From IMG/VR virus record IMGVR_UViG_3300046018_000035, positions 1-38,749 of that record: a DNA stretch of 38,749 nucleotides; one strand, written 5' to 3'. Position 1 is the first letter of the stretch; the number at the start of each line of letters is the position of its first letter. The notes beneath the pieces were generated by a model. That model was not told where the DNA came from. It worked only from the letters and a program-made list of their open reading frames with translations, and searched no databases. Source of the stretch: a virus. This document shows, piece after piece, positions 3,274 to 31,565 of this stretch. Made by a program: the position numbers and the translations under genes.

Positions 3274-3424
3274 CATCTTCCTTTAGAAATTCTTTAAGTT
3301 CTTCCTGACGTTCTTTATCACTTTGAATACGTAAGCGAAATTTAATACTCTTACTATGGTTAAGACTAAGAGCTTCCTTTTCTTTCTTCTTAGAAAGCTT
3401 AGTCTTCTTCTCGGATGAGTGCAT
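3248..3424 (-). CDS. Small Lys/Glu-rich protein, unknown
   Basis: A 58-aa, strongly charged protein with a Lys-rich first half (KKTKLSKKKEKEA) and an amphipathic, Glu-rich second half. It overlaps the 52-aa protein upstream by 26 nt and the methyltransferase-like gene downstream by 26 nt, typical of this packed operon. The ATG at 3,424 was chosen; an in-frame TTG 24 nt upstream is an alternative. The ribosome site is weak, so translation may be coupled. Confidence 0.5.
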   Translation of the reverse strand: MHSSEKKTKLSKKKEKEALSLNHSKSIKFRLRIQSDKERQEELKEFLKEDDGTTPRVW

Positions 3425-3557
3425 ACAATTTTTCTTGGTTATCTTCAATCTTATCTAGGAAGCTGTCTACTAAGTCTTTACTACTAATCTCTAGGATTTC
3501 TACAAGAGTAACCTCATCAAGTGTTCGTAGGTATTCTAATAATTCGTATTTGTTCAC
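3399..3557 (-). CDS. Small acidic protein, unknown
   Basis: A 52-aa protein (MNKYELLEYLRTLDEVTLVE and onward) with an acidic, leucine-rich, helical character. I believe similar small proteins occur in other phages, but I cannot name the family. The GTG start overlaps the stop of the MazG-like gene as GTGA, which is strong evidence for translational coupling. Confidence 0.7.
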   Translation of the reverse strand: MNKYELLEYLRTLDEVTLVEILEISSKDLVDSFLDKIEDNQEKLYALIREED

Positions 3558-4840: not shown

Positions 4841-5030
4841 TGAAAAGCTCCCCTTGCTCAGGACCAGAATCATCTAATTCCTCATCATCTAGACCATAGG
4901 CTGCTGCCATTCCTGTAGCAATAAGAAAATTAACTCCAAATTGTAGAATGGCTTGTGTTTGTTCTGCATTCAATGTTGTGGTATATGTAACACCACCGTC
5001 TTCATTTAATACTGGTACGTCTATTTTCAA
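4836..5030 (-). CDS. Small protein with acidic C-terminus, unknown
   Basis: A 64-aa protein with a polar N-terminus, a hydrophobic central helix (ILQFGVNFLIATGMAAAYGL, residues 29-48) that could touch a membrane or another protein, and an acidic tail (DDEELDDSGPEQGE). The start is TTG within the end of the HNH gene (29-nt overlap). It sits between the HNH nuclease and the phosphoesterase. I do not recognise the family. Confidence 0.6.
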   Translation of the reverse strand: MKIDVPVLNEDGGVTYTTTLNAEQTQAILQFGVNFLIATGMAAAYGLDDEELDDSGPEQGELFN

Positions 5031-9346: not shown

Positions 9347-10588
9347 TCAGTCAAAGTGTATTACATCCCTATAGCGTGCTACAGTGGGTTCTATGAGTAC
9401 TTCAAATCGTCCATGACGGAGCTCTTGTCTGCTGTCAGCATCCCCAAGTAGTTTGTTCTTAGAAATATTCAAGAACCTAGCTGATGCTAGCTCTTGATCG
9501 GCAGCCTTACCGATGCCAAGAATGAAGTCCGCTTCTGCTTGCTTAGCTGTCTTAGCATTTGCCACATGCTCCATAGTGAGATACCGAACACCCTCTGCAT
9601 GGCCGTCAGCTTGGCAAACTCCAAGGGAGGCATGACTTCCCTTAGCCAATTCTCTTGCCCATTGGTAAATGCTTCCAAGTCGCAAGTCTTCTCGGTCATT
9701 AGCAAATCCTTTAATTTTATCAATTTGGTCGTATACTACCAAGGATGGATTCAGTTGCTCTACAAGTCGTTCAACATCGCGCCGGCCAATTGTCGCGCTG
9801 TCAAACAATCGAAACTTAGTACCAACTTGCTCCTTAAATTCATCACGAAACCGCTTGACATTGGAAAGAATTACATCACTACTGACACCGAAGTAGGCAC
9901 AATAAACACGAAGCATTACTTTCCATCCGTCTTCCTCGTTATTGAGCCAGCATACTGTTGCTGTGCTCTGGGTAAGGAATTGCGTAATCTCACTTGCAAG
10001 GAAGGTAGTTTTGCCGGTCTCGGGGCGCGCAAAGATGAATCCAAAATCTCCCTTGCGGAGACTTCCCAAGCTTTTATTAAGGCAGTCAAGTCTCCATCGA
10101 AGTCCTTGATCGTAAACATGATTTGATAGGAGTTCTTCAAGATCGGTGTTAACCTCGTTAATTGAGAAATGATCGACCTGTTCTGCTTTAGGAGACTCAG
10201 CTAAAAACTGGTCTAAGTCGTCCTGTTCCTTCAACCCCTGACTAACCTGAAAGGCTAGCTCAGACAGCTTTAAAGCACGCTTGCGGGCAATGGTTTGCTT
10301 AACAATGTCCAGACCTACATCTGGTGTAATTGAAGCCTCTGAAAGGATTTTGAATAGAGATGAATATATTTCATTGTCTACATTGGGATAGCTTGCATAG
10401 AAGCTTGCTATAAGGTCATCAATAGTTAAGTCATGTTGATACTTTTCATGTAGAGATATTAGTGTTTGATATAGAAAACTTAGTTCTCTATGTGTTTCTT
10501 TAAGGTATTTTAAATCTATATATTCTTTATATAATATATAAGATTCTTTATTAAATAATACCTTTATTAAAAGTAGTTCATATTGTAT
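9347..10588 (-). CDS. Replicative DNA helicase (DnaB/RecA fold), AUA start likely
   Basis: A hexameric-type helicase with a RecA-like core: Walker A ARPETGKT (about residues 187-194), Walker B VVYDQID (about 284-290) and later SKNKLLG. The first ATG/GTG/TTG in frame is a TTG at 10,234, which cuts into the middle. Upstream of it the frame stays open for about 120 codons of good helical protein (QYELLLIKVLFNKE and onward), the expected N-terminal domain, up to a perfect AAAGGAGA site at 10,595-10,602. No AUG, GUG or UUG exists there. ATA at 10,586-10,588, seven bases after GGAG, is the best start. This gives 413 aa. Confidence 0.85.
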   Translation of the reverse strand: MQYELLLIKVLFNKESYILYKEYIDLKYLKETHRELSFLYQTLISLHEKYQHDLTIDDLIASFYASYPNVDNEIYSSLFKILSEASITPDVGLDIVKQTIARKRALKLSELAFQVSQGLKEQDDLDQFLAESPKAEQVDHFSINEVNTDLEELLSNHVYDQGLRWRLDCLNKSLGSLRKGDFGFIFARPETGKTTFLASEITQFLTQSTATVCWLNNEEDGWKVMLRVYCAYFGVSSDVILSNVKRFRDEFKEQVGTKFRLFDSATIGRRDVERLVEQLNPSLVVYDQIDKIKGFANDREDLRLGSIYQWARELAKGSHASLGVCQADGHAEGVRYLTMEHVANAKTAKQAEADFILGIGKAADQELASARFLNISKNKLLGDADSRQELRHGRFEVLIEPTVARYRDVIHFD

Positions 10589-24735: not shown

Positions 24736-26235
24736 ATGGAACTTAATGCAGACACCATTGCCGGATTCTCCGCATCTCTCTTACAACGAAATTATGACCA
24801 AGCTGTTGAGTCACCCGAGTGCCACATGGAATGGTGGGAAGCCTGCACCAGTAAGCACCCCAAGGTTGCCATTGCAGCACCTCGCCGACATGCTAAAAGC
24901 ACAGCAGTTACTCTCGCATATGTGCTTGCCTGCGTATTATTTAGAAATCGTCAATACGTCTTGGTTCTCTCCGACACCATTACCCAAGCTACTCAATTTC
25001 TCGGAGACATAAAAAAAGAACTCTCTGATAATGATAAAATCAGAACTCTCTTTGGTATTACAGGATTTGATAAAGATACAGAAGACGACTGCATTGTAAC
25101 CTGCTCTGATGGACATAAGTTTCGCCTTAGTGCTAAAGGTTCAGAACAAAAGATGCGGGGTTTAAAATGGAATAATAAGCGTCCTGATTTAATTGTTGGA
25201 GATGACCTAGAAAACGATGAAATCGTTCTTAATAAAGAACGTCGTGAGAAGTTTAAGAGATGGTTCTATGGTGCTTTAGTTCCTTGTCTAGCTAGTCATG
25301 GTGTTATCCGAATTGTTGGAACCATTTTACATGAAGATAGTCTTTTAAACAATTTAATGCCTAGTGTTTGGAATAAAGATACTGTTGTCACACCTCTAAA
25401 GATCTTCAGCAAGCATCCTAAACCCTCCTGGAAGACATTTAAATACAAAGCCCATACTGACGACTTCTTTTACATTTTATGGCCTCAAAAATATGCTCAG
25501 GATTGGTTTGAATCTGAACGTAGAGATTTTCAAGAACGTGGAATTTCTGATGTCTATTCTCAAGAATATTTGAATGAACCAATTGATGATTCAGTTGCCT
25601 ATTTTAAAAAAAATGATTTCAAAGAGTTAACACAAGAAGATAAGAAAAAAACTCTTAATTATTATATTACAGCAGACCTTGCAATTTCAAAAGAAGAAAC
25701 AGCCGACTATAGTGTATTTGTAGTTTTTGGTGTGGATGAAGGAAAATTTATTCACGTTAAACAAGTAATACGAGAACGTTTAGATGGCCGTGAAATTGTA
25801 GATATGATTATGTCTTTAAATGATATTTACAAACCAGAAATATTTGGTATTGAACAGATGCAGGTGTCCAAATCTATTGGACCATTTCTTGAAGAAGAAA
25901 TGATGCGTACTGGTAAATTTGTAAATGTTTACCCACTTAAACATAATAACAAAGATAAAATTTCCAGAGCACGTTCTATCCAGGCTCGTATGAGAGCAGG
26001 GTCAGTTAAATTTGATAAACACGCAGATTGGTATCCAATCTTTGAGGATGAGCTTGTCAAGTTCCCTCGGGGAACAAAAGACGACCAAGTAGATGCTTTT
26101 GCTTATGTAGGTATTATGCTTCAAAGTTTAATTGAAGCTCCAACGCTTAAAGAACAGGAAGACGAACTATACTATGATGAACTTGCCGCCTCAGAATCAG
26201 GAGATGCCGGACGTTCCCAGTGGACCGGATATTGA
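24736..26235 (+). CDS. Terminase large subunit
   Basis: The packaging motor and nuclease (499 aa). ATPase domain: Walker A APRRHAKST (48-56) and Walker B LIVGDDLE (152-159). C-terminal RNase H-like nuclease: ITADLAISKEETADYS (first Asp) and the KDDQVDAFAYV segment (last Asp). There is no clear ribosome site, so it may be coupled to the holin gene 4 nt upstream. Its end overlaps the portal gene. Confidence 0.95.
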   Translation: MELNADTIAGFSASLLQRNYDQAVESPECHMEWWEACTSKHPKVAIAAPRRHAKSTAVTLAYVLACVLFRNRQYVLVLSDTITQATQFLGDIKKELSDNDKIRTLFGITGFDKDTEDDCIVTCSDGHKFRLSAKGSEQKMRGLKWNNKRPDLIVGDDLENDEIVLNKERREKFKRWFYGALVPCLASHGVIRIVGTILHEDSLLNNLMPSVWNKDTVVTPLKIFSKHPKPSWKTFKYKAHTDDFFYILWPQKYAQDWFESERRDFQERGISDVYSQEYLNEPIDDSVAYFKKNDFKELTQEDKKKTLNYYITADLAISKEETADYSVFVVFGVDEGKFIHVKQVIRERLDGREIVDMIMSLNDIYKPEIFGIEQMQVSKSIGPFLEEEMMRTGKFVNVYPLKHNNKDKISRARSIQARMRAGSVKFDKHADWYPIFEDELVKFPRGTKDDQVDAFAYVGIMLQSLIEAPTLKEQEDELYYDELAASESGDAGRSQWTGY

Positions 26236-28282
26236 TCCTGCTGGACAGACGGAAGCAGGTCCAGACAAGAGTTTAGCAGCTCTTGTTGAAGCAACCAATA
26301 TTGCTAAAAAGCTAGACGAAGATACTTTACAAAAGATTTCGACCCAGGTGTCGGAAGGTTTCGAAGCTGATATGATTTCTCGTCAGCATTGGGAAAAGTC
26401 TATTGATGAGTGGGTTGCCCTAGCGTTACAAGTTAAAGAAGAAAAGAGTTACCCCTGGCGTGGAGCGTCTAACGTCAAATATCCACTTCTTTCTACAGCA
26501 GCAATGCAATTCAATGCTCGTGCGTATCCAAGCTTGGTTCCCGCAACTGGGGACATTGTTAAAAGTGAAATTATTGGTGCTGATCCAGATGGTCAAAAGC
26601 TAGAGCAAGGTAAACGTATTAGTCAATTTATGTCTTATCAACTTCTTCATGAGATGGAGAGTTGGGAAGAAGACATGGATAAACTCCTTATTATGCTACC
26701 AATTGTAGGAACTCTTTTTAAGAAGACTTACTACAACTCAGTATTACAACGCAATGTCTCTGAACTTGTTCTTCCTAAAGATATTGTTGTTGACTACTGG
26801 GCTAAGAGTTTAGAAACAGCAGAACGTGTTTCTCAAATTCTAACAATGAATAAACGTGTGGTTAAAGAGAAACAAATGTCTGGTGCCTATCTTGATGAAG
26901 ACCTTGGTGATCCAGTAATGCTTCTCCCAGAAGGGAAAATTCAAAGCACTATTCCACAAGATGCTACGCTGCCTTACCAGATTATTGAACAACATACCTA
27001 CTATGACTTGGATGATGATGGGTATGCAGAGCCTTACATTATCACCTTTGAACGTAATAGTAAACAAATCTTAAGGATTGTAGCCCGTTATGACGACACC
27101 ACGATCCATATGGACCCAGCCGACGGTAAGTTGCAAAAGATTGATCCTGTCCAGTATTACACCAAATTTTCTTTTATTCCTAATCCTGATGGTGGTTTCT
27201 ACGACATTGGTTTTGGTCTTCTCTTAAGTCCTCTTAATGAAAGTGTTAATACTTTAATTAACCAACTCATTGACGCGGGCACGTTAAACAACCTCCAAGG
27301 AGGCTTTCTGGGTAAGGGACTCAAACTCAAAATGGGTGAGAGTCAGTGGAAACCAGGTGAATGGAAAAGTCTAAACACCACAGCAGACGACTTACGTAAA
27401 CAAATTGTTCCTCTACCTACTAAAGAACCTAGTAACGTTTTATTTGAACTTATGGGTACTTTGATTACATCAGGTAAGGAACTTGCTTCAGTAGCTGAAA
27501 TCTTTACTGGTAAGATGCCTGGACAGAATACTCCCGCTACAACCACGATGGCTACAGTGGAACAAGGAATGAAGGTCTTTACTGCTGTTTATAAACGCAT
27601 CTATCGTGCTTTAAAGACAGAGTATAAGAAGCTTTTTAGACTTAATAAGATTTATTTCGATCAAAATAAGTACCAACAAGTGCTAGATCAGCAAGTATCT
27701 GCATCTGATTTTGATGAAAAAACTTATAATGTGTGCCCTGCTGCAGATCCCTCTACACCAACACAAACAGAAAAGCTAATGAAAGCACAAGGACTACTAG
27801 AACTATTACCCCTGGGTATTCTAGATCCTCTTGCAGTAGTTACTCGTGTATTAGAAGCACAAGAACAACCGTCTATTCCACAACTTTTCAACCAACAAGT
27901 ACAACAAACTGGGCAATTCCAGCCTCCTCCTGATCCTAAGATGCAAGAAATGCAAATGAAGGGTCAAATTGAACAGCAAAAAGCACAGACAGACCAGCAA
28001 GCACAGCAATTTAAGAGTGAACTTGCTGCTAGAGATCAAATATTTAAGCAATCTATGGAAAAACAGCGTGCTGAACATGACATGCAAGTAAAGGCTATGG
28101 ATGCTAAACTGAACGCTGCAATTGAGTTACATAAACAGCGGATTATGCAGGCTGGTGAAGCACAGAAAATGCAACAACAGGCCCAGCAACACGCACAAAA
28201 GTTAACACACCAAGAGGAACTTAACAAATCGAAAATTCAACAGATGAAGACTTCTTCAAGCTCTGGCAAGCCAACCCGGTAA
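26174..28282 (+). CDS. Portal protein
   Basis: A 702-aa protein following the large terminase. The core has RGASNVKYPLLSTAAMQFNA and long helical segments (LSPLNESVNTLINQLIDAGT), as in podovirus-type portals. The C-terminal 130 residues are a Gln/Lys-rich coiled coil (KGQIEQQKAQTDQQAQQ and onward), probably the barrel or internal part. The start is uncertain: ATG at 26,174 or 26,177 with a distant AGGAAG, or ATG at 26,204. All overlap the terminase. Confidence 0.9.
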   Translation: MMNLPPQNQEMPDVPSGPDIDPAGQTEAGPDKSLAALVEATNIAKKLDEDTLQKISTQVSEGFEADMISRQHWEKSIDEWVALALQVKEEKSYPWRGASNVKYPLLSTAAMQFNARAYPSLVPATGDIVKSEIIGADPDGQKLEQGKRISQFMSYQLLHEMESWEEDMDKLLIMLPIVGTLFKKTYYNSVLQRNVSELVLPKDIVVDYWAKSLETAERVSQILTMNKRVVKEKQMSGAYLDEDLGDPVMLLPEGKIQSTIPQDATLPYQIIEQHTYYDLDDDGYAEPYIITFERNSKQILRIVARYDDTTIHMDPADGKLQKIDPVQYYTKFSFIPNPDGGFYDIGFGLLLSPLNESVNTLINQLIDAGTLNNLQGGFLGKGLKLKMGESQWKPGEWKSLNTTADDLRKQIVPLPTKEPSNVLFELMGTLITSGKELASVAEIFTGKMPGQNTPATTTMATVEQGMKVFTAVYKRIYRALKTEYKKLFRLNKIYFDQNKYQQVLDQQVSASDFDEKTYNVCPAADPSTPTQTEKLMKAQGLLELLPLGILDPLAVVTRVLEAQEQPSIPQLFNQQVQQTGQFQPPPDPKMQEMQMKGQIEQQKAQTDQQAQQFKSELAARDQIFKQSMEKQRAEHDMQVKAMDAKLNAAIELHKQRIMQAGEAQKMQQQAQQHAQKLTHQEELNKSKIQQMKTSSSSGKPTR

Positions 28283-28446
28283 CACGGGTAGTTTTCAAAG
28301 CATTTGAAGGACGACTAAAAGAACTCACTGGCGAACTCCAGACCAACGCTGGTAACGACCCTTTAAGAGATAAATATGTCACAGGCTATATTGCCGCGAT
28401 TAAAGATCTTCTCTTAGCTGACCTAGATGATTTTGCATCAAACTGA
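28228..28446 (+). CDS. 72-aa protein with an apparent AUC start
   Basis: The frame reads MENSTDEDFFKLWQANPV (first residue ATC), then a helical charged protein ending LLLADLDDFASN. It exactly fills the gap between portal and GroES-like genes and looks like small helical proteins found after portals. The whole frame between stops has no ATG, GTG, TTG or CTG. ATC at 28,228-28,230 has AGAGGA about nine bases upstream. A -1 frameshift from the portal is the alternative, but I see no slippery heptamer. Confidence 0.65.
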   Translation: MENSTDEDFFKLWQANPVTRVVFKAFEGRLKELTGELQTNAGNDPLRDKYVTGYIAAIKDLLLADLDDFASN

Positions 28447-28466: not shown

Positions 28467-28775
28467 ATGATTATTCCCGATGGATTCCGTGTGCTTGTTA
28501 AACAAGATGTCTTTGAAGAAAAGGATGAAGTTTATAAAAGCGCAAAGAATAGTGGCCTTATTCTTGTCCACGATAAAAGTGTACGTGCTCAAGAAAGTGT
28601 TGATAGTGGTGTTGTGGTATTACTTGGTGCAACAGCCGATAAAACCAGTGCAAAAGTAGGCGATAAAATTGTCTACGCTAAATTTGCTGGTAAAAAGGTA
28701 GATGACCCACAAGATCCCAACACTGTCTATGTCATTATCAATGATGACGACATCTGCGCCATTATAAAGGAATAA
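28467..28775 (+). CDS. GroES-like co-chaperonin
   Basis: A 102-aa Cpn10-type protein: N-terminal IPDGFRVLVKQD strand, mobile loop region (KSAKNSGLILVHDKS), GVVVLLG, VGDKIVYAKFAGKKV and a final YVIINDDDICAII strand. It would cap host GroEL to fold phage proteins, as T4 gp31 does for its capsid protein. Its place between portal and scaffold genes fits that. AAGGAG precedes the ATG. No phage GroEL is seen. Confidence 0.85.
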   Translation: MIIPDGFRVLVKQDVFEEKDEVYKSAKNSGLILVHDKSVRAQESVDSGVVVLLGATADKTSAKVGDKIVYAKFAGKKVDDPQDPNTVYVIINDDDICAIIKE

Positions 28776-30656: not shown

Positions 30657-31565
30657 ATGTCTATTATCAATAGTGGTTCATTTGCCAAGGCCCTATGGCC
30701 TGGCGTTAATGCGTGGTATGGTAAGGCTTACAACGAGTATTCGCCTGAGTGGAACAAGCTGTTTGAAACTTATAAGAGTTCAAAGCAGTTTGAAGAAGAC
30801 GTTGGTGTCTCAAGCTTTGGTCTGGCAGTAGTTAAGCCTGAAGGTAGTCCAATTTCATTTGATAGTGAGCGTCAAGCATTCATCACACGTTATCAACACG
30901 TTGTGTATGCGCTAGGCTTTATTATTACTCGTGAAATTATGGATGATGATCAGTATGCTGTAGTTGGTCAACGCAAGGCACAAGGTTTGGCATTCTCTAT
31001 GCGCCAAACCAAGGAAATTGTTGCAGCTAACGTATACAACCGTGCGTTTAACTCGTCTTATGTTGGTGGTGATGGTGTAACTCTTATGAGTGCTTCACAT
31101 CCTAACTTTGCTGGTGGTACTTGGGCTAACCAAATTGCTACTGCTGCAGACCTTTCAGAAGCTGCCCTTGAGCAAGCTGTGATTGATATTGCTGGTTTTA
31201 CAAATGATCGTGGTCTATTGATTGCTGTTAAACCAAAGAGCCTCATCATCCCCCGTCAGCTAACCTTTGAAGCAGAGCGTATTTTAAAATCAGATGGGCG
31301 TGTTGGTACTGACAACAATGATCCAAATGCAATCAAAAATCTTGGTTCTATTCCTGAAACTGTCATTAATCATTATTTAACTGATACTGATGCATGGTTC
31401 CTACGTACTAATGTACCTCACGGTATGAAGTATTTTGAGCGTCGTGCAGATGCGTTTGATATGGACAATGACTGGGACACTGAAAATGCCAAGTACAAGG
31501 CGTCTGGTCGTTATAGCTTTGGCTGGACTGATGCTCGTGGTCTATACGGCTCGGCTGGTGCTTAA
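30657..31565 (+). CDS. Major capsid protein, HK97 fold (Mu-like)
   Basis: 302 aa. Features of Mu-type head proteins are an N-terminal helix, VYALGFIITREIMDDDQYAV, ANVYNRAFNSSYVGGDGVTL and SHPNF, a spine helix and WFLRTNVPHGMKYFERR near the C-terminus. A strong AAGGAG precedes the ATG, and the gene is followed by a GC-rich hairpin, consistent with high expression. Confidence 0.9.
   Translation: MSIINSGSFAKALWPGVNAWYGKAYNEYSPEWNKLFETYKSSKQFEEDVGVSSFGLAVVKPEGSPISFDSERQAFITRYQHVVYALGFIITREIMDDDQYAVVGQRKAQGLAFSMRQTKEIVAANVYNRAFNSSYVGGDGVTLMSASHPNFAGGTWANQIATAADLSEAALEQAVIDIAGFTNDRGLLIAVKPKSLIIPRQLTFEAERILKSDGRVGTDNNDPNAIKNLGSIPETVINHYLTDTDAWFLRTNVPHGMKYFERRADAFDMDNDWDTENAKYKASGRYSFGWTDARGLYGSAGA

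Follow-up and report, generated by a model that had tools for sequence, protein, structure and literature searches.

A conserved small phage gene between the portal and GroES-like genes with a putative AUC start in a -1 overlap

The locus described here belongs to a viral sequence of 38,749 nucleotides (IMG/VR record IMGVR_UViG_3300046018_000035, positions 1 to 38,749), referred to below as the window. Between the genes for the portal and for a GroES-like protein, which are 184 nt apart, lies a small open frame at 28225-28446, delimited by an upstream stop at 28222-28224 and by its own TGA at 28444-28446 (Table 1). The portal corresponds to a 716-aa stop-to-stop frame from 26132, with an ATG at 26174 or 26177. 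An earlier sequence-only reading had pointed out that the small frame contains no ATG, GTG, TTG or CTG, and the letters of 28225-28446 bear this out; its only ATH codons are the ATC at 28228 and two ATT far inside. It had also been stated that the gene fills the gap exactly, which is not the case: counted from the ATC, it overlaps the last 55 nt of the portal gene in another phase, the -1 frame, and ends 20 nt short of the GroES-like ATG. The missing NTG was rejected as evidence by itself, since NTG-free stretches of 73 codons are not rare inside the genes of the window (about 5%), and the case for an AUC start therefore rests on relatives. A sequencing error or assembly indel is excluded because a second contig, L001, is identical to the window (100% over 10.2 kb) and because relatives with 48-84% portal identity share the same arrangement; L001 is probably the same phage and hence not independent of the window.

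Table 1. Features of the window considered in this work
Feature	Position	Strand	Remarks
DnaB-like helicase gene, no NTG	9347..10588	-	Pfam DnaB_C, E 1e-6; AUA 10588 behind AAGGAG, spacing 6
Portal protein gene	26177..28282	+	PHROG 1216 portal, E 5e-19; 55% identical to the portal of Alcaligenes phage vB_Af_QDWS535
Shine-Dalgarno-like AGAGGA	28213..28218	+	9 nt before ATC (sequence)
Small gene	28228..28446	+	Conserved between portal and GroES; 72 aa, predicted to fold as a helical hairpin
Proposed AUC start codon	28228..28230	+	Sole ATH near the N-terminus; ATT/ATC position conserved in relatives
Portal stop TAA	28280..28282	+	Falls in GTA ACA, the conserved Val-Thr codons of the small gene
GroES-like gene	28467..28775	+	PHROG 3188, E 3e-8; ordinary ATG and TAAGGAG

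Portal searches led to 157 viral loci, and a total of 162 portal loci were examined for the small gene. A hidden Markov model of the small protein found matches in 158 of the 162, with a core Trp kept in 157 of these 158, so that the frame is a member of a real, mostly unrecognised gene family located between portal and GroES. After deduplication, 122 distinct loci remained, of which 72 have an ATG, GTG or TTG before the core and 50, the window included, have no NTG; the comparison with relatives that had been called for thus shows the same gene to be conserved. The nearest named relative is Alcaligenes phage vB_Af_QDWS535, where a homologous frame lies in an unannotated portal-GroES gap, with no NTG near its start and an ATC at 3325 behind AAAGGAG. 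This conserved gene of the structural region (3313-3531 in locus L003) went unannotated in a complete phage genome, having apparently been missed for lack of an NTG start. AlphaFold2, run on the family alignment without the rows from phage records, confidently predicted a helical hairpin, with a mean pLDDT of 91; if the ATC is taken as residue 1, the first helix starts at residue 6. At the level of function, the small protein of the window was unmatched in Pfam and PHROG, and searching both with the family returned scattered weak matches only and no function; tblastn of the 73 aa of the window against named phages gave no match, and nothing significant appeared in the PDB by sequence or by fold. 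The best match in BFVD (E 1.2e-3, 39% identity) is to a phage protein that is itself uncharacterised.

The position of the proposed start was assessed in the 50 loci without NTG, where it is ATT in 26, ATC in 23 and ATA in one. In the alignment, the spacing between the Shine-Dalgarno (SD) sequence and the ATH is 7 in 38 of the 50 loci and 4-6 in the remainder. When the SD was located first, blind to the ATH, an ATH appeared at offset 7 in 37/50 loci and in at most 10 at any other offset, a preference kept after thinning by tree distance to 25 lineages (18/25 at offset 7, at most 5 elsewhere). SD matches are longer in AUH than in NTG loci (p 5e-6), a family-wide difference, the window's own match being short (AGGA of the consensus). 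The portal residue over the start is Leu in 25 loci and Ser in 22, while the codon of the small gene remains ATH. The sequence-only reading had taken ATC 28228, with AGAGGA about nine bases upstream, as the start; the spacing is exactly 9 nt, and the proposal is well supported by conservation, by the SD spacing and by the lack of frameshift signals.

The choice of start codon follows the phase in which the small gene overlaps the portal gene. Among the 122 distinct loci, all 47 starts that fall within the portal frame in the -1 phase are devoid of NTG and are ATT or ATC, whereas the two located there in the +1 phase are both ATG. Starts that abut the portal gene or do not overlap it are NTG in 70 loci (27 NTGA overlaps and 43 non-overlapping) versus AUH in three (L027, L066 and L228). 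Contigs from bacterial genomes add two further -1 overlaps with ATC (L247 and L250) and three more distant +1 overlaps with ATG (L248, L249 and L251), bringing the comparison to 49:0 versus 0:5 (Fisher p 3e-7), a raw value that overstates independence because the loci are related and that relies on a small +1 control of two viral loci and three from genome contigs. The recurrence of this lack among relatives (50 of 122) exceeds what chance would give: other genes of the same loci hardly ever lack NTG, the counts being 0/77 for portal, 0/67 for GroES and 0/77 and 0/76 for the next two genes; the terminase (2/56) and a capsid-region gene (3/73) gave a few cases, all in alignments starting inside the protein. 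The 47 overlapping loci have 19-103 nt between the start and the portal stop; these loci, including the window with its 55 nt, display a long same-strand overlap in phase 2 (-1 phase, at least 7 nt). Any NTG start placed in the -1 phase is read as TGN by the portal frame, giving Cys, Trp or a stop; the +1 overlaps, to which this constraint does not apply, have ATG. There is no TGN among the overlapped portal codons, an observation that is weak alone, TGN making up 1.6% of portal codons. Judged from these alignments, AUH is apparently used because the small gene overlaps the portal in the -1 phase, where any NTG start would force Cys, Trp or a stop into the portal protein.

The best explanation of these observations is very probably that the frame is a genuine gene of the family, that it starts at AUC 28228 behind AGAGGA, and that its AUH start is a trait derived from the loss of the stop in an NTGA junction. 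The AGAGGA would position the ribosome on the AUC, which would be read by the ordinary initiator tRNA, making the first residue fMet and not Ile; the yield would presumably be low and sensitive to IF3. A phage-encoded tRNA decoding AUC was considered and rejected, since no tRNA was found in the window. The ancestral state would be the NTGA of many NTG relatives, in which the TGA that ends the portal overlaps the start of the small gene. Most simply, a single mutation of G to T or C in ATGA would then turn AUG into AUU or AUC and at the same time abolish the portal stop, and the portal would run to the next in-frame stop, usually within the conserved Val-Thr codons of the small gene (GTAAC). 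In 26 of the 47 overlapping loci, the distance from the first base of the core Trp codon to the portal stop is 16 nt. Once the stop was lost, a return to NTG would require the portal to accept a TGN (Cys, Trp or stop), and AUU or AUC together with a stronger SD would persist. In this reading AUH is an old trait that probably goes back to the loss of the stop from an NTGA start/stop overlap. Under a two-state model on the portal tree, a single gain of AUH and four losses are reconstructed, the direction of change being provisional as the root is set by three long outgroup branches. An A follows the start in 37/50 AUH and 60/72 NTG loci, which is consistent with the stop-loss route and also with a general preference for A at this site.

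Experimentally characterised AUH starts are few in bacteria. Like the start proposed here, those of infC (ATT in E. coli, ATC in Streptomyces) and pcnB (AUU) (PMC5472188, PMC13009471), and those of Staphylococcus aureus cvfC1 (AUU), ccpN and citZ (both AUA), lie behind a strong or extended SD (PMC13009471). In S. aureus, AUU and AUA starts behind extended SDs have been proven, with yields for cvfC1 and ccpN of about 10% of that of AUG, rising for ccpN to up to 30% in rich medium, and the AUH starts of cvfC1 and ccpN are conserved across relatives (PMC13009471). Unlike these bacterial genes, the present one is a phage gene whose start lies inside the upstream gene, and its alternation between AUH and NTG, as read from the sequences, follows the phase of the overlap. 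It was previously stated by Sabath, Graur and Landan (2008) that every ATG, GTG or TTG start in phase 2 draws on an upstream TGN codon (Cys or Trp) and is hence rare (PMC2542354); that work took NTG starts only, whereas AUH apparently bypasses the constraint here. As for the ATGA-type overlaps associated with termination-reinitiation (PMC6728339), the same NTGA layout is present in 27 of the 72 NTG relatives, while the overlapping AUH loci differ in that 19-103 nt separate the start from the portal stop. The open-access literature searched yielded no phage family in which an AUH start is conserved, which does not prove absence. The family offers many natural replicates together with a contrast (-1 with AUH versus +1 with AUG) that tie the choice of start codon to overlap phase, and overlap phase is a simple reason for a weak start to become fixed and kept. 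Whether AUU/AUC is a general escape from the phase-2 constraint, through stop loss and start swap in one mutation, gain of a strong SD and long persistence, is a more tentative matter, and such generality seems somewhat doubtful; if it held, gene finders that accept only NTG would be overlooking many genes of this kind in phage and bacterial genomes.

Overlap is not the sole reason for retention, given that L027, L066 and L228 keep AUH unoverlapped. These three loci favour another view, itself compatible with initiation at the AUC, in which AUH is kept as a weak regulatory start that provides a small dose through a low, IF3-sensitive yield, the overlap being secondary. The helicase also speaks for it, as a second gene without NTG and without overlap. 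The earlier claim that this phage tolerates AUH starts stands insofar as two genes of the window lack NTG, the helicase being the only further candidate AUH start that the search for others in the window brought up; it does not extend to the remaining listed genes, which have usable NTG starts, and the start of the small gene follows the -1 overlap. The helicase start is separated from the upstream gene by a 38-nt gap, and therefore its missing NTG needs another reason. Of the 76 related helicase loci whose 5' end is defined, 15 lack a nearby NTG, two of these being the window and L087, a copy 100% identical to it; most of the 15 show an SD followed by ATH. In QDWS535 the helicase is annotated with an ATG start. 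Control by IF3 at non-canonical starts has been described for sigR (GTC) and infC (PMC5472188). Against a regulatory role stand the use of NTG by 72 of the 122 relatives, the exact tracking of the -1 overlap by AUH, the stronger SD of the AUH loci, which looks like compensation, and the four losses on the portal tree; as the main reason for the AUH start, regulation is considered unlikely.

It was also suggested that the frame might be a C-terminal extension of the portal produced by programmed -1 frameshifting, stimulated by the SD-like motif and without separate initiation. All 47 overlapping AUH loci do have the frame in the -1 phase with respect to the portal, SD-like motifs are able to stimulate frameshifting, and Z_ZZN tetramers occur in 31 of the 47; the -1 phase and the SD-like motif upstream are likewise shared with programmed -1 frameshifting (PMC4066793). 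However, the slippery heptamer X_XXY_YYZ is found in only one of the 47 loci, at +57, and is absent from the window, and even the tetramer is missing from the window and 15 other loci. Five loci carry an in-frame stop immediately before the ATH, where the shift would have to follow the stop, and a fixed distance between SD and ATH is not needed by a frameshift. Moreover, the same protein is encoded in 72 of the 122 loci by a separate gene with its own NTG, and the product is therefore not a portal extension by nature. Frameshifting is accordingly a very improbable origin of the product, although it might conceivably take place weakly at some loci other than the window, which has no Z_ZZN. That the frame is not expressed at all, as a decaying pseudogene or a chance open frame, would agree with the lack of a start codon by ordinary rules and of a Pfam or PHROG match for the window protein, but is hardly credible for an intact frame that is conserved, along with its core motif, SD and gene order, in some 50 AUH loci and whose fold is confidently predicted from the family alignment.

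Some additional observations were made in the related loci. In L029, L060 and L076, homology to the capsid-region protein encoded at 30657-31565 of the window starts abruptly at residue 14 after a stop; Rfam gave no intron match for the missing N-termini of these three genes, which may perhaps reflect an insertion. In L066 (2340-2530) the portal and the small gene are separated by an extra small gene, and the AUU persists there without portal overlap. Finally, in MW202785 (locus L005, 4941-5165) the annotated ATG at 5001 is probably too late, as the sequence includes a GTG at 4941 that overlaps the portal stop and fits the family.
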